A stretch of DNA of 64,000 nt from Deltaproteobacteria bacterium (GTDB lineage Bacteria; Myxococcota_A; Polyangia; JAAYKL01): positions 1 through 64,000 of the forward strand of contig JAUVDV010000023.1 of assembly GCA_030595125.1 (NCBI GenBank). The letters are read 5' to 3'. Made by a program: the position numbers and the translations under genes. Positions within the stretch are counted from its first letter, which is position 1. Every line of letters starts with the position of its first letter. This document shows positions 5,003 to 25,042 of the stretch, piece by piece. A model generated the notes under the pieces. The model was not told where the DNA came from. It ran no database searches and was given only the letters and a program-made list of their open reading frames with translations.

Positions 5003-7456
5003 TTAGTACGGCTGTTCGGGTGCTTCATCCGAAGCAGGTGGCGCGTCCGGGCCGGGCGTCGGCTGCTTCGGCGCTGCCGGGGGTTTGGTGTCACCTGCCG
5101 GGGTGTATGGATTTGGGCTCGAAGGTGGTTGATCCTCCGGGGGGGCGGTGGGCTCCGCCGGTTTTTCGGCGGGTGGGGAATCTCCGGTGCTTGCAGCGGA
5201 TCCCAGTGCCTGTTCGAGCTGCTCGATATTTCTCTTTGCCATGGTGGCATGGCGACCCGACGGGTTCATTGAGAGATATTTCTTGTACCAGGTGAGCGCC
5301 TGATCTTTTTGCCCCTGGGCCTTGTAGGTCTCGGCCAGGCCGATGATGGCCGGTCCATACGAGGGGTTGACTTTGAGCGCACGTCTGAAGTGGGCGATGG
5401 CCTGTCCCTTCGACCCGCGGTCCAGGTAACAGTAGGCCAGGCCGGAGAGCGCCTCGATGTTGCCGGGGGAGCGCGTGAGAACCGCCTCGAAGAGATCGGT
5501 GGCGCCACCGGTATTGCCGTTTTGCTGTAGTTTCGAAGCTCGCATCAGCAACGATTCGGTGCTGCCCCCGGTGGAGACCCCGGCTCCCTTTTGCGCACCG
5601 GGAAGGACCGGCTGGGTCGCGGCGATCTTGGTGTCGCCGTCTGTTGCGACAGCCTCGCCGGTGTCCGTGTCGCCAACCTCTTCCGGATCCCCATCCTCTG
5701 TCGGTTCCTCGTCGGGTGTGTCCCCGGTGTGCAGCAGTACCGGCAGGCCGGCGTCGATCCGGGCCTGAAGCTCGCGAGCGCGCTTGTGATCCGAGTTCAG
5801 GCGAAGGAGCCTGGCCAGGCGCTTTGACGCCTTCTCATTTTTCACCTCGGATGCCAGAACCCTCGCCTCACGGTAGAGGGCGCAGAGCATGTGTTCGTCG
5901 GCGGTCACGGGCGCGAGTATTTTGAGCACCTTCGAAGAATCGGCCTTCTTGTCGATAGCGATCATCGCTGCGAAGTAGTCGGCCTCCACGGCGTTCTGCG
6001 CGGAACGGCCTTTTTCGAGGTGCTTCGAAGCCTTTTCGAGATCGCCGGAAAGCCGGTGAAGATCCGCCGATGCCAGGTGGGCCTCGGCAAGTTCCGGGTC
6101 CGCCTTGAGCGCCTGATCTGACCAGCGCCTGGCCTCTGACAGCCTGGTCTCGAATTCCATGTGCAAGCGCTCGGCTTCTTTGAGATCGGGTTGCGCTCCT
6201 TCGGTTTTGGCGGCCAGTGCCATGGCGTCAACGTTGGCGTCGATCTCCCGATCCAGGTAGTACTGCGCCCAGATCGAGTACATCTGGGCGAGGGCGGCCA
6301 GAGTGAGCGCGTCGTTCTCCTTGAGGGCGAGGGCCTGGTAGTACTCACGGTCTGCTTGTGTGAACGCCGATTCGGTGTCGAGCAGGAAGCTCTCGCGTCC
6401 TTTGAGGTAAAAAGTCTTGTGCCGGCCATCGTCGGACTTGCTGATCATGCCGCCGAGCAGATTATCCACCGTTGGGCGCTGATACATGAACATGTAAAAT
6501 GCGCCTCCCACCAGGGCCAGAACTACCACGAGCACAATCCATCGTCCGACCTTTCGTTTCGGGCCGGGGCGTGCCTGTTTGAACTCTTCCTCGATGGCCG
6601 CAGGAATGTGAGAATCCTTTCGCACCCATGCGGGTCCTTCGGTAGTAACGGGCTGGCCGGCCTCCCAGTGTGCGCTGTCCGAAGAAGTGGGAATCTGTGA
6701 GAGGTCCGGTTCGTGTTGATCGGGACCTGCGGGCGCAACTGCGGGAGCCATGGAATGTGTGAGTTGTTGTGTATCGACCATGGACGGAACCTGCGCAGTG
6801 GACGGAACCTGAATAGCCTGTTGTGTCGGCTCCGACGAGGAGACGCGGGTCGACGGCGACGGCGACGGCGATTGGATGAGCGTTGCGGCGTTGGATATGT
6901 CTTCCGATGCAGCGGACGGCGCGTAGCTGACCACCTCCTGAACCACAGGCCGGGCCATGGGGGGAGCAACAGAGGGGGACGCTGCGAATGGCACCGTGGC
7001 CGGTTTGGCGAATTCGGCGGTAGACGTGCGGGATTCGATTGCCGGCTGCCGCATGGTCGCCTGGTGTGCCTGGGCGTCCGGCGTGTTAGGATATCCTGCC
7101 GCGACCGGGCGTGTACCCGGTCGTATTGCCCTCGACGCCTGGGCCGCGTCGAAGAACGATTTCATCTCAGCGATATCACCGAGGCGTTTCCATTCGCCGT
7201 TTCCCTTGCGTACCTGGTCGTTGGGACTGACCTTGCTGCCTGCGATCCAGTCCTGAAGGGTCGCTATACGATCGAAAGGAAAGGTCGATCCGTCCACCTG
7301 TCGAAGATTCCATGTTTCGTTGGTTCCCGCAGCCGAGGGGGGGAAGGCCTTGAAAACATGACCGCAGGTCGTGCACCGCACCGAGGTGCCCGACGGGCTC
7401 ACCAGAGTTTCGTCCAACGAATACTCTGTTTTACATTTCTCGCATTGAACATCCAT
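5003..7456 (-). CDS. Membrane protein with MJ0042 zinc ribbon, GYF-like domain and TPR repeats
   Basis: An 817-residue multidomain protein. Residues 1-35 form an MJ0042-type zinc ribbon (C5, C8, C28, C31). Residues about 47-100 look like a GYF_2 domain (WNLRQVDG start, WKRLGDI end). A Pro/Ser/Thr-rich cytoplasmic linker of about 180 residues follows, then one transmembrane helix near residues 302-324. The periplasmic part has two TPR blocks (about 380-590 and 650-765) separated by a low-complexity acidic stretch, and ends in a Pro-rich tail. This architecture is frequent in Myxococcota, where some members belong to motility or polarity systems; no specific role is claimed. It lies 15 bases upstream of sppA on the same strand. 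Confidence 0.88.
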   Translation of the reverse strand: MDVQCEKCKTEYSLDETLVSPSGTSVRCTTCGHVFKAFPPSAAGTNETWNLRQVDGSTFPFDRIATLQDWIAGSKVSPNDQVRKGNGEWKRLGDIAEMKSFFDAAQASRAIRPGTRPVAAGYPNTPDAQAHQATMRQPAIESRTSTAEFAKPATVPFAASPSVAPPMARPVVQEVVSYAPSAASEDISNAATLIQSPSPSPSTRVSSSEPTQQAIQVPSTAQVPSMVDTQQLTHSMAPAVAPAGPDQHEPDLSQIPTSSDSAHWEAGQPVTTEGPAWVRKDSHIPAAIEEEFKQARPGPKRKVGRWIVLVVVLALVGGAFYMFMYQRPTVDNLLGGMISKSDDGRHKTFYLKGRESFLLDTESAFTQADREYYQALALKENDALTLAALAQMYSIWAQYYLDREIDANVDAMALAAKTEGAQPDLKEAERLHMEFETRLSEARRWSDQALKADPELAEAHLASADLHRLSGDLEKASKHLEKGRSAQNAVEADYFAAMIAIDKKADSSKVLKILAPVTADEHMLCALYREARVLASEVKNEKASKRLARLLRLNSDHKRARELQARIDAGLPVLLHTGDTPDEEPTEDGDPEEVGDTDTGEAVATDGDTKIAATQPVLPGAQKGAGVSTGGSTESLLMRASKLQQNGNTGGATDLFEAVLTRSPGNIEALSGLAYCYLDRGSKGQAIAHFRRALKVNPSYGPAIIGLAETYKAQGQKDQALTWYKKYLSMNPSGRHATMAKRNIEQLEQALGSAASTGDSPPAEKPAEPTAPPEDQPPSSPNPYTPAGDTKPPAAPKQPTPGPDAPPASDEAPEQPY

Positions 7457-12609: not shown

Positions 12610-13182
12610 ATGAAAATTCGATATTTGTTGATTTTACTGGTCGCCAGCGGGTTGTTGCAGGTTGCTTGCGGCAGCGATTCACCTTTACCCTACGACACCG
12701 AGGACGGTGGGACCGGCGACGCGGATTCGGACGGTGACGCGGACGGTGATGGTGACTCCGACACGGACTCCGACACGGACTCCGACACGGACTCCGACAC
12801 GGACTCCGACACGGACTCCGACACGGACTCCGACACGGATTCCGATACTGACACCGATACGGACACCGACACGGGAAGTGTCACTTGCGCGACCCAATAT
12901 ACAGCGTCCGACATCGACGGATACATCGACTGCGATTCCAACCCCACGGAATGCCATATCGGATACAATAGCCAGTCCCACTCTTGCACCATGGTCTGCG
13001 AAGATCACGGCGGCGAGTGCCTCAACGCGTACAACGATGCGTCCGCAGGATGCGGCGTCGGCGGGGGTTACAACTGTGACGGCACGTATTTCTCCACTGC
13101 GGTATGTGTATGTTCGCTGGGATGTGGGGGCGGCCCTCCCTGCACAGGGGGGCAGATCTGTAGCGGCGGCACCTGTAGCTAA
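12610..13182 (+). CDS. Lipoprotein with Asp-Ser/Asp-Thr linker and Cys-rich C-terminus
   Basis: A 190-residue lipoprotein with lipobox VACG (Cys20) and a strong ribosome binding site (GGAGG, 5 bases before ATG). Residues about 30-93 are an uncharged-backbone acidic linker of Gly-Asp, Asp-Ser and Asp-Thr repeats, encoded in part by seven perfect 12-bp tandem copies. The C-terminal 95 residues contain about 14 cysteines and no recognised domain; a small disulfide-bonded module is likely. It probably presents this module outside the cell, the linker acting as a spacer. It is transcribed just after the HD-domain gene (50 bases) but with its own ribosome binding site. Confidence 0.85.
   Translation: MKIRYLLILLVASGLLQVACGSDSPLPYDTEDGGTGDADSDGDADGDGDSDTDSDTDSDTDSDTDSDTDSDTDSDTDSDTDTDTDTDTGSVTCATQYTASDIDGYIDCDSNPTECHIGYNSQSHSCTMVCEDHGGECLNAYNDASAGCGVGGGYNCDGTYFSTAVCVCSLGCGGGPPCTGGQICSGGTCS
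12754..12837 (+). repeat. Seven perfect tandem copies of a 12-bp unit
   Basis: The unit GACTCCGACACG is repeated seven times without a mismatch and encodes Asp-Ser-Asp-Thr inside the acidic linker of the lipoprotein gene at 12610. Degenerate copies continue to about 12875. Since the unit is a multiple of three, copy-number change would lengthen or shorten the linker without shifting the frame. Confidence 0.95.
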
Positions 13183-15927: not shown

Positions 15928-17166
15928 TTACTCGACGGCGCGGCGGATGGCGCCCAGCATGACCATATTGGTTCCTATCATCAGGCCGTGCTCCAGGTAC
16001 GGTTCGCGATTGATCGTTTTTTGCAGAATATAGGCGGACTTCCCGATGTGGGCGAAGCCGTGGTACGCGACGACGGACTTGTTGTCCTCGACCGGCGCTA
16101 TTTGCCAGCGCCATTTCGCGCCCTTGAGATCTCCTTCAATGCCTTCAAGCAAGACTCCCTGGTCGATGGAGGTCATCCTGTTGCGCGAGGTGATGCCGAA
16201 GACAGAGAATCCCAGTGTCCAGGAGAAGTCGATCTCCGTGTCCGTCGCGTCGTGAACCGTTACCTCGGAGATGGCCTTGATCATCTTCTGGTAGTTTTTT
16301 GGAGTGCTGATAGCGTCCAGGACCTTCTGGGCGGGCGCGTTTACCACCTCGATGACTGTAGCTTGTCTCAATCTGCCACCCGATCGAGAGTCGGAGATGA
16401 TCACCTGACCTCTTACCAGAAGCGGCGCGAGTCGCTTTAACTCCGAGGAAGATACGACGCGCATGGTTCCGCCCGCCTTGCCCCGGGTTCGGTGTTTGGC
16501 CAGCTTCTTTCCCCTGGCCATTTTCTCCGCCAGAGACTTCATTCCCTTGATAAGCATCGCGCCGATGGCCACATTCATGGCCTCCCGCATGGCCGGGTTG
16601 CCGCCCACGAGGAAGCGGATCAGCCACTCGGAGCTCTCCACGTCCAGAATGCCCGACAGAACGACAATCGTGTGGTTCTTGCCGTCCTCGTAGAAGTTGA
16701 AAGTAAAGCTGCCCGAACCGATGTTGCTTTTGGTGAAGGCCACGTCCGCACGCCGTGGCGGAAAGAGGGCGATGGTGTTTATCCCGGTGAAACTGAAGAG
16801 CTTGTGGCGCGATGCCCAGGACCAGGCCTTGGCGCCCTCGTGCTCCTGGATGATGATGTTTTCTTTTAGCAATGTGGACAGGTAATAATAGTTTTCGGGA
16901 TCCTCGATCGTCTTGAAGGTTATTTCCCTGGGAGCTTTTACCCGTACGGCCAGCGTCATCGACGTGGGGTTGCCCTTCGCGTCCGTTTCCGACAGGCCCA
17001 CCAGACCGTGTTTTCGGAGCAGGGGCCTTATGGAGTTGAGCTCCTTCTCGGAAAATCCTCCGGGGGCCTTGCCGGCGAAGACGGGTTGATGCAACGCGGC
17101 TATGCACACGAAAATCAGGAGCGATAGATATCGACTAAACCTGCTTGATACGCCAATTAACCCCAT
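15928..17166 (-). CDS. Exported tandem SRPBCC/COQ10-like domain protein
   Basis: The start at 17166 has a good ribosome binding site (AGAGGAGA) and gives a signal peptide (YLSLLIFVCIAALHQPVFAG); 412 residues. Two regions, about residues 75-225 and 265-410, each resemble the helix-grip SRPBCC fold: both begin with a strand on binding residues followed by a segment of the form I-x-D/T-P-x-N-Y (TIEDPENYYYL and AISTPKNYQKM) and end in a long amphipathic helix. Such folds bind lipids or other hydrophobic ligands. Export is unusual for the fold and suggests a periplasmic lipid-handling role; that is inference. It is the last gene of a minus-strand run. Confidence 0.78.
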   Translation of the reverse strand: MGLIGVSSRFSRYLSLLIFVCIAALHQPVFAGKAPGGFSEKELNSIRPLLRKHGLVGLSETDAKGNPTSMTLAVRVKAPREITFKTIEDPENYYYLSTLLKENIIIQEHEGAKAWSWASRHKLFSFTGINTIALFPPRRADVAFTKSNIGSGSFTFNFYEDGKNHTIVVLSGILDVESSEWLIRFLVGGNPAMREAMNVAIGAMLIKGMKSLAEKMARGKKLAKHRTRGKAGGTMRVVSSSELKRLAPLLVRGQVIISDSRSGGRLRQATVIEVVNAPAQKVLDAISTPKNYQKMIKAISEVTVHDATDTEIDFSWTLGFSVFGITSRNRMTSIDQGVLLEGIEGDLKGAKWRWQIAPVEDNKSVVAYHGFAHIGKSAYILQKTINREPYLEHGLMIGTNMVMLGAIRRAVE

Positions 17167-17221
17167 GGGTTCTCCTCTCTGGGGTATTGGACGTTGCACC
17201 GGGTGCTCGAATTCAGCTTCA

Positions 17222-17677
17222 TCAGGGACAACAGCTCTTCCGACCCGCCTCGCAACACTTTTTAAGATCTCCGCGCCCGTCTTCTTCGTTGCCCTGGGCG
17301 ATGAGCGCCCGCCCCCGCAGCTCCAGCACTTCCATGTCACCGGGATTGGTCAGCACCAGCACGTCGGCGATGGCCACCGCATCTTGTGCGCGGTTTTGTG
17401 AAAGGGCCTTTTTGGTCGCATCGAGCAGGTCGTTGCGCCCGGTTGCCCCCTCCTCCAGAATTCCGTCAGGGGCATTGCCTATTTCACCGACAAGAGGAGG
17501 CGCGACCAGCCCCGAGAGCAGCTCTCCGGAGGGCCCCTCGCGCAAGTCGGTCTTTTCGATTTTCTCGTCCGGTTGACTGTTTGAGATTGTTTCGGCGACG
17601 GGCGATGACCCGTTGCAACCCATGCAAAGGCAAATGAATAGTAGTAACCCCATCCCGGCCATATATTTAGTTTTCAT
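17222..17677 (-). CDS. Small TPR-like lipoprotein
   Basis: A 151-residue lipoprotein with lipobox LCMGC. The C-terminal 70 residues form a helix pair resembling one TPR unit (LSQNRAQDAVAIADVLVLTNPGD... region) and end in a Cys-rich segment (KKCCEAGRKSCCP). The middle is acidic and probably flexible. It starts 2 bases after the stop of the upstream barrel gene and is likely translated from the same message. Function unknown; small TPR lipoproteins often assist outer-membrane assembly. Confidence 0.75.
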   Translation of the reverse strand: MKTKYMAGMGLLLFICLCMGCNGSSPVAETISNSQPDEKIEKTDLREGPSGELLSGLVAPPLVGEIGNAPDGILEEGATGRNDLLDATKKALSQNRAQDAVAIADVLVLTNPGDMEVLELRGRALIAQGNEEDGRGDLKKCCEAGRKSCCP

Positions 17678-17679
17678 GT

Positions 17680-18222
17680 CTAGTAGAACTTCATGCCGAT
17701 GGTGAAACCGATGGCAACCACGTCCTCGATGTTGTCCAGAAGGAAGTAGTCCCCTTCGATGGCAAAATCGATGGCCCAGTTTGAGTTGACGAAGAACTCG
17801 TAGCCCACGCCGAGGGACACATCCATACCCAGGGTCATGCTCTTCCCCATGACGTCCTCCTCGGGAAACATGAAGGCGAGCCCACCGGCGAGCCGCATAA
17901 AGATGGCGTCGCTCAGGAAGAAATTGAACTCGGGTCCGGGCACCAGATACCAGTTGGAGTTTCCGTCGACGAGCTGGAACCTGACATCAAGGTCCAGGGC
18001 AAAGGTGACCCGCTTGGTGGGAGCGCCCCCTATCTGGACGTCCAGCAGCATGTCGCCGCCAACCTTGTCGTTTTGAATTGCGGCGCCGCCGCCGATCCCG
18101 ACCCCCGCGAACAGCCCCCGCCGATCCTGGTAGCCGTCCAGGGCAGACGCATCGGCTGCGACGAAGAGCGAGAGCGCCGCGACCGTAAATGCGACGCACT
18201 TTACGATAAGTATTTTTTTCAT
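17680..18222 (-). CDS. Small outer-membrane beta-barrel protein
   Basis: A 180-residue protein with a Sec signal peptide ending in ADASA-LDG and alternating hydrophobic/polar strands throughout; it ends in a terminal aromatic (IGMKFY), the usual recognition signal for the barrel-assembly machinery. The size fits an eight-stranded OmpA/OmpX-type barrel. The ATG has a GGAGG 7 bases upstream. It lies in the same run as LpoB-like and COG3014 genes. One copy of the 34-bp direct repeat lies just upstream, at 18248. Confidence 0.82.
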   Translation of the reverse strand: MKKILIVKCVAFTVAALSLFVAADASALDGYQDRRGLFAGVGIGGGAAIQNDKVGGDMLLDVQIGGAPTKRVTFALDLDVRFQLVDGNSNWYLVPGPEFNFFLSDAIFMRLAGGLAFMFPEEDVMGKSMTLGMDVSLGVGYEFFVNSNWAIDFAIEGDYFLLDNIEDVVAIGFTIGMKFY

Positions 18223-18247
18223 AATTGTTCCTCCGTAGTCATCTTAA

Positions 18248-18281
18248 CGCATGGACGCGACCGATACGACGGAAAATCCGC
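18248..18281. repeat. 34-bp direct repeat, copy A
   Basis: Perfectly identical to 19459-19492. On the minus strand it encodes FSVVSVASM-type tail codons plus most of the following Arg codon; in this copy that Arg codon is also followed directly by TAA (18244-18246), so the copy reproduces the end of the COG3014 gene. It sits between the SUMF1-like gene and the barrel gene and is not part of an intact gene. Confidence 0.95.
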
Positions 18282-18328
18282 ACCGGTTGCGGATTACGTT
18301 TTCGTAGTTTGAAGGGCGCGAAGACCGC

Positions 18329-19417
18329 TCACTTCCCGGCGTCGACTCCCGCGTCGGGTTGTGGTGGGGGATTCAGGGTTCGTACCGGACGGAAGCCGGT
18401 GTCGATAAATCTATAATAAGGACTGGTTCCGAATTGATAAGCAACAGTGACTCGACAAGCCATCCGTCGGTAGGAACCGCCTCGGAGATCCCTTCGATTC
18501 CCCTCGCCGTCTCCGACCGGATCGATAACATCTCCAGTTTGACCTACAGTTTCTTCCAGGCTCAGTCCTTTGTAAACATAGTCCGTCCACTCCCAGATGT
18601 TTCCCAGCATATCATGCAGTCCCCATTCGTTGGGCTGCTTCAGGCCGACCGGCTTTATCTCGGTGGTGTTGTTGCAGTACCACATTATATCTTCCGCCGA
18701 TGGCTCCTCTTCACATACGTATCCCTCGGTCGTGATTTCTCCGTTGTAGTTTGAGGTAGTGGTTCCAGCCCGCGCGGCGTACTCCCACTCTGCTGATGTG
18801 GGCAGCCGGTAGCCTGGGCATTCGTAGAAGTTTGGGTACTTGTGCACATCGTGAGTACAATTGAAGGTGTTATCGCCACATCCCCAAACGTCCTCCGGCG
18901 GGCAGCCGTCGCCGATGGTTCCGGTGCAACCGGTGAGATTGTAGCACGTGTCCAGGTCTTCTTGCTGCGAGAGATAGTTACAGTACGCGAGCGCTTCGAA
19001 CCAGTCGATGAAACCCACCGGTTTGCTTACGTTGTGGGGAGTTGTTGATGGGTTCGGGAAGCCCGCAGTTGTCCACTCTTCCTGAGTGATCTCCTGTTGC
19101 CTTATAATGAAAGAATGGGTCAGTGTAACTTGTGTTTGCTTGTCCTGAAATACTCCACTACACGGGACGTCGTCTTCCTCTCCAAAAATATAGCATCCAT
19201 TAGGTGTCGTACACCAACCGTCATTACAGTCCTCAACTACTGTGGGATGAACGCAGTCATCTGTATCTGTATCTGTATCGGCATCTGTGTCATTATCCGA
19301 ATCTGTGTCTGTGTCTGTGTCGGTATCCGTCCCCGAGTCCGGGCCGCTCCCGCTGTTGCTCGAACAACTGGGGCAGCCCATGAGGATGGACAAAGCAACA
19401 AGGAGTACTATCTTCAT
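18329..19417 (-). CDS. Acidic-linker lipoprotein with SUMF1 / FGE-like domain
   Basis: A 362-residue lipoprotein; the ATG at 19417 follows a GGAGG and gives signal peptide with lipobox LMGC. A linker of Asp-Thr/Asp-Asn/Asp-Ala repeats (about residues 28-55) precedes a formylglycine-generating-enzyme-sulfatase (SUMF1) domain. Diagnostic segments are YRLPTSAEWEYAARAG, PNEWGLHDMLGNIWEW and DLRGGSYRR. The C-terminus ends GFRPVRTL, without the Cys expected next to FRC in true FGE, so sulfatase activation is unlikely; most bacterial members are structural or ligand-binding. The gene is bracketed by a perfect 34-bp direct repeat and has lower GC than its neighbours, suggesting it was inserted into the surrounding operon. 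Confidence 0.88.
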   Translation of the reverse strand: MKIVLLVALSILMGCPSCSSNSGSGPDSGTDTDTDTDTDSDNDTDADTDTDTDDCVHPTVVEDCNDGWCTTPNGCYIFGEEDDVPCSGVFQDKQTQVTLTHSFIIRQQEITQEEWTTAGFPNPSTTPHNVSKPVGFIDWFEALAYCNYLSQQEDLDTCYNLTGCTGTIGDGCPPEDVWGCGDNTFNCTHDVHKYPNFYECPGYRLPTSAEWEYAARAGTTTSNYNGEITTEGYVCEEEPSAEDIMWYCNNTTEIKPVGLKQPNEWGLHDMLGNIWEWTDYVYKGLSLEETVGQTGDVIDPVGDGEGNRRDLRGGSYRRMACRVTVAYQFGTSPYYRFIDTGFRPVRTLNPPPQPDAGVDAGK

Positions 19418-19454
19418 TTTACTCCTCCCACACCTGGAACTCGTTAAACAACCA

Positions 19455-20855
19455 TTATCGCATGGACGCGACCGATACGACGGAAAATCCGCCGGGGGGT
19501 ACGTTGACCGTCTTGTCGACTTGTGTCGATCCGGCCTGGCCGGAGAAGGCCACGGACACCTTGTGCTTTCCGGCGGGGACTTCCTTCCTGGACACAAGGA
19601 TCATCGAGGGGAGCGTCACCCACGACCGGGTGTCGGGAGTGTCCGCGGCGGTCATGGCGCCCTCGACGGCAAACTGGGCGAGCAGCGCCAGTCCGCTTGC
19701 GGCGCCACCCGCTTTTGCCCCCTGGTTGGCCGCCTCGCCGACCACCGCCCGGGTGATCATCCGGGTGATGGCAGCCACCATGAGGGTCCCCTTGATTCGA
19801 TCCCAGGCGTCGATCACCAGTTCTGTGACGTTCTCGCCCAGCTCCGCCGCGATGGGTTCGCCATCCACCGTCACCCGGGCGCGTTTGAATCTTGGGCGGG
19901 TCTTCTTCATCACCGGGAACATGACCCATTTGAGAAGTCCCTTGGCGGACAGCTCGTTCGCCCTGCTCGAGTTGCCGGAACTCAGGGCAGGGCCGTACAT
20001 CACGTGAGCGGCGATCACCAGCGCCGCGCCTATCGGGATTCGCCTGGCCTGTTTGTGGGGCGCCAGGCCCAGGGACGTCACCACCAGGATCGTGCCCGTC
20101 TTTTGGGAATTCTTCTCGCAGATCGGTCCGGGCGATCCTTCCTCCACGGGCTCCAGCAGCTTCTCGATCCGGTCCGTGCGGTAGGTGTCGCATGCCGCGA
20201 GCCGCCGTATCGGAGCGATGAGGGATGGGTGATCACCCGCCTCAAGCGCGCTGTCGTAATGACCCAGAGCTTGCTCTCTTCGGCCGGACATCTCGAAGGT
20301 GAAGCCCGCCAGGTAATCGCCAAGGCCGAGCCCGGCCTCGTCGGGAGAGACCTGGTCCTTCAGATAATCCTGCATGATTGTGAACCGGCGGGCCTCGACG
20401 CGGGCGCTCTCCAGATCGCCGATGGAGAGATAGTTGATCATGTTGAGCGTGTTGAGCAGGAGCTTCTCGTGAGGGGGCGCCTTGTATACGGTGGAGTCGT
20501 CGGAGAAGAGCCACTTGCCGATGTTTCCGGCGGTGTCGTTCTTGACGTCCAGCATCTCCAGATGTTTGTCGGAGATCCGCAAATCGAGAGCAGACGATTT
20601 GTAGCCGCCGAGCCCCTGCTTGATGGTGCCCCGCTCCAGAACCAGGAGGGCGTTCTCGCCATCCAGATCGATGGGGTAGTGGTCGGATTCCTCCACCTCC
20701 AGGGCCTTGTTCGCCATGTGAAGAGCGCGAAGCTCGTTTCCGGCCAGCAGGGAAGAGCGGATTTCCTTGACGTCGCCCTCGTATCCCGCGCAGGCGCCGA
20801 GAACGAGCGTGATCAAGACTGCGGCAAGGTTGCAGATTGTGCCCGGGCGAATCAT
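19455..20855 (-). CDS. COG3014-family TPR-like lipoprotein
   Basis: A 466-residue lipoprotein (lipobox LGACA). The first half is helical and TPR-like, with the family-typical segment NTLNMINYLSIGDLESARVE around residues 135-155, which I recognise from COG3014 proteins. A Gly/Ala-rich helical segment (about 350-395) could associate with the membrane, and the last 80 residues are beta-rich (PAGKHKVSVAFSG, PPGGFSVVSV), like a small Ig sandwich. COG3014 genes commonly neighbour LpoB-type genes, as here: the LpoB-like gene is 3 bases upstream on the same strand. A role with LpoB in envelope or peptidoglycan control is inferred from this pairing only. Confidence 0.85.
   Translation of the reverse strand: MIRPGTICNLAAVLITLVLGACAGYEGDVKEIRSSLLAGNELRALHMANKALEVEESDHYPIDLDGENALLVLERGTIKQGLGGYKSSALDLRISDKHLEMLDVKNDTAGNIGKWLFSDDSTVYKAPPHEKLLLNTLNMINYLSIGDLESARVEARRFTIMQDYLKDQVSPDEAGLGLGDYLAGFTFEMSGRREQALGHYDSALEAGDHPSLIAPIRRLAACDTYRTDRIEKLLEPVEEGSPGPICEKNSQKTGTILVVTSLGLAPHKQARRIPIGAALVIAAHVMYGPALSSGNSSRANELSAKGLLKWVMFPVMKKTRPRFKRARVTVDGEPIAAELGENVTELVIDAWDRIKGTLMVAAITRMITRAVVGEAANQGAKAGGAASGLALLAQFAVEGAMTAADTPDTRSWVTLPSMILVSRKEVPAGKHKVSVAFSGQAGSTQVDKTVNVPPGGFSVVSVASMR
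19459..19492. repeat. 34-bp direct repeat, copy B
   Basis: Perfectly identical to 18248-18281. This copy forms the last codons of the intact COG3014-family gene (...GFSVVSVASMR-stop). The two copies are about 1.2 kb apart, in the same orientation, and flank the SUMF1-like lipoprotein gene. Confidence 0.95.
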
Positions 20856-20858
20856 CCT

Positions 20859-21455
20859 CTATTTGACGAGGCCTTTTGTGAGGTTTGCCTCATTTTGCCA
20901 TCGCACTATTCCCGTTTCCACTTCGACCACCTTCATGAACAGGAAGTACTGGACGCGTCGCTCCCCTTCTGCGCGCTCGGCCGCGTCGTGCACCTTTCCC
21001 GTGAGAAAAAACTTGGCTCCGAGCTGTCGCCCCACCTGGGTTGCGTGGGATTCGTTGAAGGCCGCGCCCTGTTGCGTCTTGACCTCCTCGATGAGCAGCA
21101 ACTGGCGCTCGTGATCCACGATGGTCGCGACGCCGCCGTTGATGAGATTGGTTTCCATCTTTGAAAGCAGGGCGTCGAGTTGATCGCGCACGTGCTCGCT
21201 CGTCTCGTTTGCGATTGGGAAGATGGACACGACCGGGGGCTCCGGCTCGGTCTTCCACTTGGCGACGATCGCCGATTCCATGAGGGACTTGATGTTCTGG
21301 TCGAAGAGCTTTTCCAGATCTTTCTTGTCGAGCCCGGTGCTCATGGCGTAGTCGTCGAGCCCCTCCACCTCGTCGCCGCGCACGAAAGTTGGGCCGCAGC
21401 CGAAGGTTCCCGCCGCGATGACGGCGATTGTCACGAGTGTAATGAGTGTTTTCAT
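20859..21455 (-). CDS. LpoB-like penicillin-binding-protein activator lipoprotein
   Basis: A 198-residue lipoprotein with lipobox TFGC and a ribosome binding site (AAGGGACG). The domain from about residue 70 has the LpoB/COG3417 layout: PPVVSIFPIANETSEHV strand-loop, a helix with DQLDALLSKMETNLIN, the VDHERQ motif and AKFFLTGKVHD. LpoB reaches through the periplasm to activate class A PBP1b in enterobacteria; whether this protein does so is unknown, as LpoB-like proteins with COG3014 partners form a distinct group. It is the first gene of the minus-strand run. Confidence 0.87.
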   Translation of the reverse strand: MKTLITLVTIAVIAAGTFGCGPTFVRGDEVEGLDDYAMSTGLDKKDLEKLFDQNIKSLMESAIVAKWKTEPEPPVVSIFPIANETSEHVRDQLDALLSKMETNLINGGVATIVDHERQLLLIEEVKTQQGAAFNESHATQVGRQLGAKFFLTGKVHDAAERAEGERRVQYFLFMKVVEVETGIVRWQNEANLTKGLVK

Positions 21456-22812: not shown

Positions 22813-24041
22813 GCGTGGAGTTTCAGGGGAGAACCATTTACTACATGGGCGACACTCGGACGGGATTTCATCCGCTGTTCGATTGTCCCGGAGATGCCAA
22901 CTGCAACGATATGATGGCGATTTCATGGGACAACACTCCGGAGGACGGCGTCAACGTGCTCATTGTAGAATCGGCCCTCAATAGCGGCATATTCCTGCCG
23001 CAGATGGTGCCTGGTGTGCACTATGATATCGCCCCGGAGCTTGAACCGACCTCCTCCGGCTTCTGGGGCGACAAAACATTGTACGGTTACATCGAACCTC
23101 AATACACCGTGCCCACAGGCGTGGTGGTGGCGCATCCGACGTTCTTGGGTTTTCCATTTGAAATGGTGATGTTGTGGTACTCCACGGCTATTCACCCGGG
23201 TGGAAGTTACCCACCTAGAGAAATCGACAGCAGTGATCCCAGGACACGACCTACTTCATGGACCGGCTGCTCGTTTGACGGCCTCAACTTTTATAAATGC
23301 TATCCCAATGTGCCCCCGTTCTCGATCGATGAAACATCTCCCTACAACGAACCTGCTCGCTTCATCCAGGTTGCGGCGATCGAGATCACTGCGGCGGATT
23401 TCGAGTCCGTGTGCCCGGGCGGAGACTCCAGGTTTTGCAATTTGTACAACGCTTCCGTGCCGGCAACCGCAAGGGGCGGTTTACTGCTTTACGGCTCCGG
23501 TCGACCATACCGAAAGAGCGGGTTGTTTCTGGCGTATATAAGAAATGTGGATATCTTCAAGGAAACCGCCTCAGGCAAACCGACCGTCTGGTATTGGAAC
23601 GGCTCGGATTGGTCAACGAATGAACAAGACGCGGTATCGCTGACCCACTACCCCGGAGCCCCACTGTGTGACAACTATATGAATGAAAACGAATGCTGGC
23701 CTTATGTAGAAGCCGATCGAATCGATCTCTTCGGCGAGTTGTCCGCCAAGCTGATCCGTTCCGCCAGCAGCGAGGAGAGCGTTATCGTTCTGATGTCAAA
23801 TCACTTAATGAACGACCCTGATGATGAAAACGTTCGTGCCCGCACGGCCCGGTTGTCGACACCCTGGATCGTTTCAGGTCCCTCGCCAACAGGAACAAGA
23901 GGTTACGGCCCGTACATCATAGACGAGTACATCGAGCACGATGGCTACACGGGGGACATCGGTCTGTACCACGTAATTTCCGTGTGGGGCGACGGACCAT
24001 ACGGTGTGTACACAGGGTACGAGGAGGTTGCATGGCCGTAA
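22809..24041 (+). CDS. DUF4185-like beta-propeller, 3' part of the split gene
   Basis: The only ATG in this frame (22809) overlaps the previous stop (ATGA) but sits inside a conserved motif: the same frame encodes GGTDLG immediately upstream, then MSVEF, YYMGDT and DMMAISWDNTPEDGV, which together match the start of DUF4185 glycosidase-like propellers (GTDLG ... GDT ... D-x-A). The frame stays open back to 22713 with no ATG, GTG or TTG and no ribosome binding site before 22809. The N-terminus of this domain is therefore coded upstream of the apparent start, so the two frames are best read as one disrupted gene. The remaining 400 residues are beta-rich with several aromatic-rich blades. Confidence 0.72.
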   Translation: MSVEFQGRTIYYMGDTRTGFHPLFDCPGDANCNDMMAISWDNTPEDGVNVLIVESALNSGIFLPQMVPGVHYDIAPELEPTSSGFWGDKTLYGYIEPQYTVPTGVVVAHPTFLGFPFEMVMLWYSTAIHPGGSYPPREIDSSDPRTRPTSWTGCSFDGLNFYKCYPNVPPFSIDETSPYNEPARFIQVAAIEITAADFESVCPGGDSRFCNLYNASVPATARGGLLLYGSGRPYRKSGLFLAYIRNVDIFKETASGKPTVWYWNGSDWSTNEQDAVSLTHYPGAPLCDNYMNENECWPYVEADRIDLFGELSAKLIRSASSEESVIVLMSNHLMNDPDDENVRARTARLSTPWIVSGPSPTGTRGYGPYIIDEYIEHDGYTGDIGLYHVISVWGDGPYGVYTGYEEVAWP

Positions 24042-25042
24042 ATAGAGTGGCCGTTTTGGGGCCGATGTTCTTGCTCTGCACTACCGTGGCCGTGTGCGGT
24101 TGTTGGTTGGGAGGCGGTCAGAGCGGTACACCGGACGGCGGCGATGTCGATTCCGATAGCGATACCGACGCGGATGGTGACACCGACACGGATGCAGATA
24201 CCGATACCGACACGGACACCGACACCGAATTCACCTGCGAGGGTGTGCTCCACTTTCCGGACCCCAACTTCGAATTGTCCGTGTGCTTGAGCCTGGGCAT
24301 ATTCGACAACACTACAGACACTTGCACCGCAGACATCCTTGCCGAGGACGTCGCCGAGATAACATACTTCGTTTCTATCGCATCGGTGGCGTACGTTTCG
24401 GCGCCTGAACACTACATAACCGATCTTACCGGATTGGAGTGCATGCCGAATCTCATTACGGTTAAAATTGAGGGTAACTACTCTTCCTTCGATCTCTCCC
24501 CACTGGCCGGCGCGAGCGCGTTGGAAGCCCTGTACGCAGGCGAGAACCAGATAGACGATCTATCGCCTCTGGCCGGACTTACCCAACTCTTTTATCTGGA
24601 CCTGTACCACAACGAAATCTCGGATGTTTCACCGCTTTCCGGCTTGACCCAACTCATCGGGCTCGTGTTGAGTAGAAACTTGATCTCCGATGTATCGCCA
24701 TTGTCCTCCCTCAATAATTTAGACAGCCTATCCCTCAGTAAAAATGAGATATCGGACATCGACCCGCTCGCGTCCCTAACTGGCCTATGGAGCCTCGGCC
24801 TCAGGGAAAACGACATATCGTACATCGACGCCGTGGCTTCGATGACCGGCCTTGATACCATTTATTTTTGGATGAACAACGTTACCGACCTTACCCCGCT
24901 GGTGAACAACGCATCTTTCGCCGATGGTTGCTACGCCGATTTCACGGACAACCCTATCGATTGCGACGACCAAGCCGCGAACATTGCGACGTTGAAAGAC
25001 AGAGGCGTACATCTGGTCTGCGACTGCAGCGCGTGCGATTAG
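24032..25042 (+). CDS. Acidic-linker lipoprotein with internalin-type leucine-rich repeats
   Basis: The ATG at 24032 follows GAGGAGG and overlaps the preceding stop by 10 bases. The 336-residue protein has a lipobox (VCGC), a linker of Asp-Ser/Asp-Thr/Asp-Ala repeats (about residues 35-68), a Cys-containing cap, and about seven 22-residue leucine-rich repeats (about 145-300) of the internalin type, e.g. LSPLAGLTQLFYLDLYHNEI and ISDVSPLSGLTQLIGLVLS. A Cys-rich C-terminal cap ends the domain. Such LRRs bind proteins; the ligand is unknown. Overlap with the DUF4185-like gene suggests coexpression. Confidence 0.88.
   Translation: MAVNRVAVLGPMFLLCTTVAVCGCWLGGGQSGTPDGGDVDSDSDTDADGDTDTDADTDTDTDTDTEFTCEGVLHFPDPNFELSVCLSLGIFDNTTDTCTADILAEDVAEITYFVSIASVAYVSAPEHYITDLTGLECMPNLITVKIEGNYSSFDLSPLAGASALEALYAGENQIDDLSPLAGLTQLFYLDLYHNEISDVSPLSGLTQLIGLVLSRNLISDVSPLSSLNNLDSLSLSKNEISDIDPLASLTGLWSLGLRENDISYIDAVASMTGLDTIYFWMNNVTDLTPLVNNASFADGCYADFTDNPIDCDDQAANIATLKDRGVHLVCDCSACD

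Follow-up and report, generated by a model that had tools for sequence, protein, structure and literature searches.

A long target duplication probably marks the entry of a lipoprotein gene into an LpoB-COG3014-barrel operon

Insertion with long target duplication was proposed after comparison of Helicobacter pylori genomes, where it frequently involves restriction-modification genes (Nobusato et al., 2000, Gene 259:99-108, as related in PMC1643837, PMC4978471 and PMC3031569). Where these three citing papers take it up, they treat it only as a suggested mechanism of gene mobility, and restriction-modification cargo is usual in the original examples rather than a structural requirement. With the H. 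pylori cases so described, the locus presented here shares a polymorphic insert, a long and variable direct duplication of the target, and a single copy in a relative. It lies in the 64-kb stretch of DNA that was analysed (the window), where a lipoprotein gene stands between two copies of the end of a COG3014-type gene. This case and its recurrences elsewhere in the genome are probably insertions with long target duplication, the lipoprotein gene having entered the LpoB-COG3014-barrel operon in the ancestor of the genus.

The repeat pair and the interrupted operon

The features of the locus are as follows; gene calls are codon-usage predictions made in this analysis.

20859..21455, minus strand: LpoB (PF13036, by Pfam), upstream operon member
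19455..20855, minus strand: target of the insertion, a COG3014-type protein gene (466 aa)
19455..19492, minus strand: copy 1 of the repeat, the current working COG3014 3' end with stop codon
18282..19454: inserted segment, 1173 bp, 52.9% GC
18329..19417, minus strand: inserted gene for an FGE/SUMF1-domain (PF03781) lipoprotein, 362 aa, with lipobox-like signal, Asp/Thr/Ser repeat linker and C-tail RTLNPPPQPDAGVDAGK
18275..18295: hairpin with 8-bp stem, one arm being the start of copy 2; of marginal significance, resembling a terminator on the plus strand
18244..18281, minus strand: copy 2, where COG3014 originally ended (34 exact nt and a TAA), now separated from the gene and still contiguous with the barrel-gene leader
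18225..18281, minus strand: copy 2 with the barrel-gene leader and ribosome-binding region; no variation among three species over 58 alignment columns
17680..18222, minus strand: small beta-barrel outer-membrane protein gene, next in the ancestral operon (weak OMP_b-brl match)
17222..17677, minus strand: TPR-like small lipoprotein, conserved in the operon
15928..17340, minus strand: START/polyketide-cyclase-like protein, conserved in the operon; true start probably within the ORF

Direct comparison within the window confirms the identity of 18248-18281 and 19459-19492 given in the first-pass annotation (34/34 nt). The copies are in direct orientation, and the extended pair (18244-18281 and 19455-19492) matches at 37 of 38 positions, with one mismatch and TAA in both. 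Read on the minus strand, copy 1 (...CCATGCGATAA) is the true end of COG3014, the 466-aa ORF closing where the annotation had placed the gene end. Copy 2 (...CCATGCGTTAA) shares that frame, is preceded by no gene, and runs on into TTAAGATGACTACGGAGG and then the barrel start. This continuity with the barrel leader makes copy 2 the old gene end and copy 1 the new junction. The copy at 18248 is thus detached and followed by TAA in frame, as had been noted, but it is the original end and not a secondary tail.

Low-complexity sequence aside, the window has no other direct repeat of 20 nt or longer with a spacing of 0.15-12 kb, and chance cannot explain a complex 34-mer that recurs 1.2 kb away. Two sister species, G001 and G002, also have both copies, each on an independent contig and with 0 mismatches in 33, so the pair is not an assembly artefact of a single MAG. 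In each of the three genus members (these two and G000, which holds the window) the repeat is found just twice.

Comparison with related genomes, which the first-pass annotation had proposed, gives the polarity. COG3014 directly adjoins the barrel gene in L024-L028 and L030-L032, eight genomes that represent at least seven other genera and, in one case, another family; none of these eight has a second copy of the COG3014 end, each having a single 3' end. The order LpoB, COG3014, barrel is kept outside the genus, usually followed by the TPR-like and/or the START-like gene, which bears out the earlier view that the lipoprotein gene interrupts this operon. The uninterrupted single-copy junctions demonstrate that the lipoprotein gene is the insertion. 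Together with its deviant codon use, they uphold the cassette insertion that the annotation had suggested; the bracketed gene is indeed lower in GC, at 53.1% with a GC3 of 0.575, against a GC3 of 0.78-0.81 in LpoB, COG3014 and the barrel gene.

All three genus genomes (3/3) hold both repeat copies, and the insertion is therefore ancestral to them; an empty COG3014 site is absent from these three. Conservation of both repeats in every close relative, which had been named as an argument against insertion, is true inside the genus, yet one relative has different cargo and the other genera are empty. It consequently dates the insertion and does not refute it. In the nearest genus (G006, L023), the same COG3014-barrel junction holds an unrelated 2.1-kb insert without flanking repeats, consisting of two paralogous small lipoproteins and a third gene. 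The spot is therefore permissive to independent inserts.

The inserted protein and its exchange within the genus

The only Pfam match of the inserted protein is FGE-sulfatase (PF03781, E 1.5e-31), and the best solved-structure match is Treponema denticola TvpA (PDB 2y3c, E 2e-20). In an alignment with 6muj made by eye, the first FGE active-site cysteine is absent and one cysteine lies near the second position. The protein is probably a non-enzymatic surface binding lipoprotein. DGRs employ the FGE-type C-type-lectin fold for variable ligand binding (PMC6328139), and the likeness to TvpA and other FGE-type DGR variable proteins lies in this variable fold and in the closest solved structure. A DGR-type reverse transcriptase is not found in the genus: the two full-length RVT_1 hits (G000 and G001) are group-II-intron-like (QGGVVSP), G002 has none, and the search also gave one partial G000 match (C99) that lies outside the group-II-intron-like assignment. 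Diversification of the FGE lipoprotein by a DGR was rejected on this ground; in contrast to DGR systems, variation here comes from dispersed paralogs and replacement at the locus. Further lipoproteins with Asp/Ser/Thr repeat linkers are encoded at 12610-13182 and 23984-25042 of the window, and such linkers occur at dozens of places across the three genus genomes.

Between the repeats, G001 has an orthologous lipoprotein, here called type A. G002 has a repeat spacing of 2.35 kb, occupied by a type B FGE gene and an extra 247-aa gene with a 42-bp tandem-repeat tract, and its left joint differs by three bases (GCGTTAG vs. GCGATAA). The lipoprotein genes between the repeats diverge by 23-38%, while flanks, signal/linker and C-tail remain similar. 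The type B protein of G002 shares 90% amino acid identity with a dispersed G001 paralog and 58-63% with type A at the orthologous locus, which demonstrates cargo replacement in one sister species. Five such G001 paralogs are missing from the orthologous G000 and G002 sites. The absences at sister sites and the swap between types indicate that FGE lipoproteins are gained, lost and exchanged quickly in the genus.

The G001 family comprises members on C458, C99, C497, C260, C29 and C11 (L101-L106); the C-tail RTLNPP(P/A)QPDAGVDAGK is seen in five, and C11 is an N-terminal fragment only. The family's absence at orthologous sites of the sister species points to fast surface-protein turnover. Clean repeat-bracketed copies were not found at the other G001 FGE paralogs, where the left flanks are replaced too and the gene is missing from the sister sites. 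On either side of a further FGE lipoprotein gene stands a copy of CCCAAGGGTGCCAGACACATTTTT (L064:4149-4172 and 5130-5153), possibly REP-like; this motif is dispersed, and the pair was discarded as an insertion scar. The 247-aa protein (MASKSTVQRQKSS...) belongs to a multi-copy, dispersed family with no Pfam match, found at L021:5800-6543 (minus strand), at L101:3255-3998 and on G000 contigs C111, C26, C191, C10, C187, C101 and C21. Several copies of its gene are followed by the GC-rich 42-bp tandem-repeat tract, and the gene sits before the FGE lipoprotein in G002 and at G001 C458.

Related duplications in the same genome

A search of 1.59 Mb of MAG contigs, about 30% of the G000 genome, was made for direct repeats 0.3-8 kb apart that are isolated and not dispersed, with paralogous genes, tandem-repeat genes and dispersed motifs removed from the candidates. 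In this 1.59 Mb, 11 loci have 12 duplications of 35-88 nt that bracket inserts of 0.76-3.06 kb, the range of duplication lengths being set in part by the effective repeat window of the search (about 30-160 nt); matches above this length had the look of repeat proteins or paralogs, or were left aside. At least ten loci besides COG3014 thus share its architecture. Coordinates in the list refer to G000 contigs, and domain names come from Pfam and PADLOC where searched, and otherwise from reading the sequence.

COG3014 locus (window): FGE lipoprotein
C173:86642/88909: dnaK; metallophosphoesterase lipoprotein and RAYT-like gene
C173, second gene, 98579/100277: radical-SAM-like gene bracketed
C198, 55071-59079: lipoprotein end in two successive diverged copies; flotillin-like pair and another lipoprotein
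C32, 20929/21772: radical-SAM-like gene end; ORF6N gene bracketed
C100, 13877/15878: RNA-methyltransferase-like gene end; AAA_21 ATPase and HEC-01B-like partner
C75, 20913/22665: ABC-F ATPase bracketed
C101, C167 and C26: intergenic DNA targets
C113: the target is a gene leader

The inserts carry lipoproteins, defence-like genes and an ABC-F ATPase. Pfam and PADLOC name FGE, metallophosphoesterase, ORF6N, AAA_21 with a HEC-01B-like partner, SLFN_AlbA_2 and ABC-F among them, and find no restriction-modification cargo. The AAA_21 and HEC-01B-like genes (L225:14061-15856, on C100) are a candidate anti-phage pair, and the target duplication there is 62 nt. At C198, the successive diverged gene-end copies suggest repeated insertion at one gene. 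Eight of the 12 duplications, that of dnaK included, span a stop codon, as do 4.9% of random same-length segments and 31% of segments that are not gene-internal (P 0.012). Among non-disruptive sites the excess is mild, and agrees with selection against parting genes from their leaders. Repeats of a SEC-C motif on C113 and of lipoprotein signal peptides on C103 were put down to paralogy and discarded. G002, over 299 kb, gave no event other than COG3014, and 80 kb of a distant genome gave none. A palindromic element of about 55 bp (CTTCCCCTTCCCCCTCGCAGGGGAAGGCCGGGATGGGG) at C32:21848-21900 is dispersed and in high copy across the genus, with dozens of sites in G001 and G002.

For each locus, the outer flanks joined with one copy were searched for in the sister genomes. 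A contiguous single-copy site is present for four of the further loci: C167 and C100 in both G001 and G002, C101 in G002, and C32 in G001. At C100 and C32, both copies share G000-specific substitutions that are missing in the sister species; the duplicated DNA therefore came from the recipient, and the insertion took place after the species had split. Had the second copy come with the donor, as an att site or a gene end, such substitutions would not be expected unless conversion followed. No clean empty site is found at dnaK, the 98-kb locus of C173 or C75, because the sister species differ downstream.

Competing origins, a possible route and known systems

The anatomy of the COG3014 locus fits what a site-specific integrative element (ICE, IME or CIME-like) would leave behind after its integrase had joined it at the COG3014 3' end and was later lost, the 34 bp being attL/attR cores. 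IMEs recombine between direct repeats of 8-60 bp, often non-disruptively at housekeeping 3' ends, and decayed CIMEs retain just the att sites (PMC5704250); in Dehalococcoides, islands that lack integration modules have repeats of this kind (PMC3146451). However, no integrase occurs in the inserts inspected, and inserts of 0.8-3 kb at 11 unrelated targets, some of them intergenic, would demand many integrases, all lost. The second copies at C100 and C32 have the recipient's substitutions, whereas an attP would bring its own sequence. A site-specific mobile element carrying the repeat core was discarded as a candidate: the 26-nt core has zero exact matches among 2.9 million viral contigs (IMG/VR), and the repeat stands at just two copies in each of three genomes. 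An integrative remnant is accordingly unlikely. We regard as less likely still a transposase that makes long variable target duplications, in the manner of IS1549 and IS1634, insertion sequences with documented direct repeats of 8-514 bp (PMC2266710). A RAYT-like protein, recognised by eye and without Pfam match, is encoded in the dnaK insert, but the 12 inserts have no terminal inverted repeats beyond the random level, no end motif in common and no shared gene.

The repeat might instead be maintained as a functional site, either a regulatory leader or a recombination site, and not be an insertion scar. Over 58 columns, copy 2 and the leader show no change among three species in which 23% of four-fold sites vary (34 invariant sites at that rate have P ~1e-4), and scarless excision would be possible between perfect repeats. 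Yet the 58 nt include the ribosome-binding region, and the same alignment has invariant runs of 47-86 nt in flanking coding DNA, for which reason the invariance is given no weight; we read it as leader constraint or conversion and build nothing on it. No promoter-like site is found within the repeat, and a functional site would explain its upkeep and not its origin, so that this reading appears highly improbable. Tandem duplication and later divergence of the COG3014 end, the other origin offered in the first-pass annotation, agrees with the direct orientation of the copies, but its probability is close to negligible: merely 34-38 nt of COG3014 are duplicated, with sharp edges, the intervening gene is foreign and has no relation to COG3014, and other genera have an empty, single-copy junction.

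For insertion with long target duplication, the reading preferred here, the remaining routes are template switching, illegitimate recombination or some further enzyme. Capture by NHEJ was rejected, Ku being absent from the genus. We favour template switching or illegitimate recombination, although the sequences are compatible with several routes. A replication fork or repair patch would leave the target at one point, and foreign DNA, perhaps taken up by the cell, would then be copied or ligated in. Synthesis resuming 35-90 bp behind the point of departure would produce the target duplication, with the COG3014 end rebuilt on one side and the old end and barrel leader staying on the other. The duplicated stretch holds the COG3014 end with its stop codon, so neither neighbour is damaged. 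A 35-90 bp duplication that rebuilds the upstream gene needs no targeting to 3' ends; selection would retain insertions at 3' ends and in intergenic DNA, since they do no harm there. The lipoprotein gene would later have been exchanged by recombination through the conserved signal/linker and tail. The range of 35-88 nt is narrower than free template switching predicts and could hint at a dedicated enzyme, but the search itself favours 30-160 nt. It is conceivable, if rather doubtful, that enzyme-driven acquisition is active in the lineage, taking up arbitrary 0.8-3 kb cassettes with 35-90 bp duplications and no terminal signals, and thereby supplying an exchangeable repertoire of surface lipoproteins and defence genes.

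The eleven readable events, four with sister-species empty sites, provide material for inferring duplication lengths, junctions and cargo. They show a route by which genes can enter operons of apparently important genes (dnaK, the RNA-methyltransferase-like gene, the LpoB operon) without damage. Detached tails may be misannotated automatically as pseudogenes or att remnants, and the recurring scar points to a poorly understood mode of bacterial gene uptake.

ICEs, IMEs and CIMEs resemble these loci in having direct repeats of similar length (here 34-38 bp, at the COG3014 3' end) and in possible tandem accretion, as with the two successive copies at C198 (PMC5704250; Dehalococcoides ssrA islands, PMC3146451). 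They differ in that here no integrase is found, each locus has another target, the inserts are very small and, at two loci, the duplicated DNA belongs to the recipient. IS1549 and IS1634 share the long variable target duplications (PMC2266710), but are insertion sequences with terminal repeats and a transposase, whereas the inserts here lack terminal repeats. Compared with the H. pylori cases as the citing papers relate them, the cargo consists of lipoproteins, defence-like genes, ABC-F and others, in place of the restriction-modification genes frequent there, and 30% of one genome yields 11 loci, most of them at the 3' ends of genes and one with later cargo exchange. The COG3014 insertion is accordingly filed as a variant of insertion with long target duplication, with other cargo, many events per genome and subsequent exchange of the cargo.
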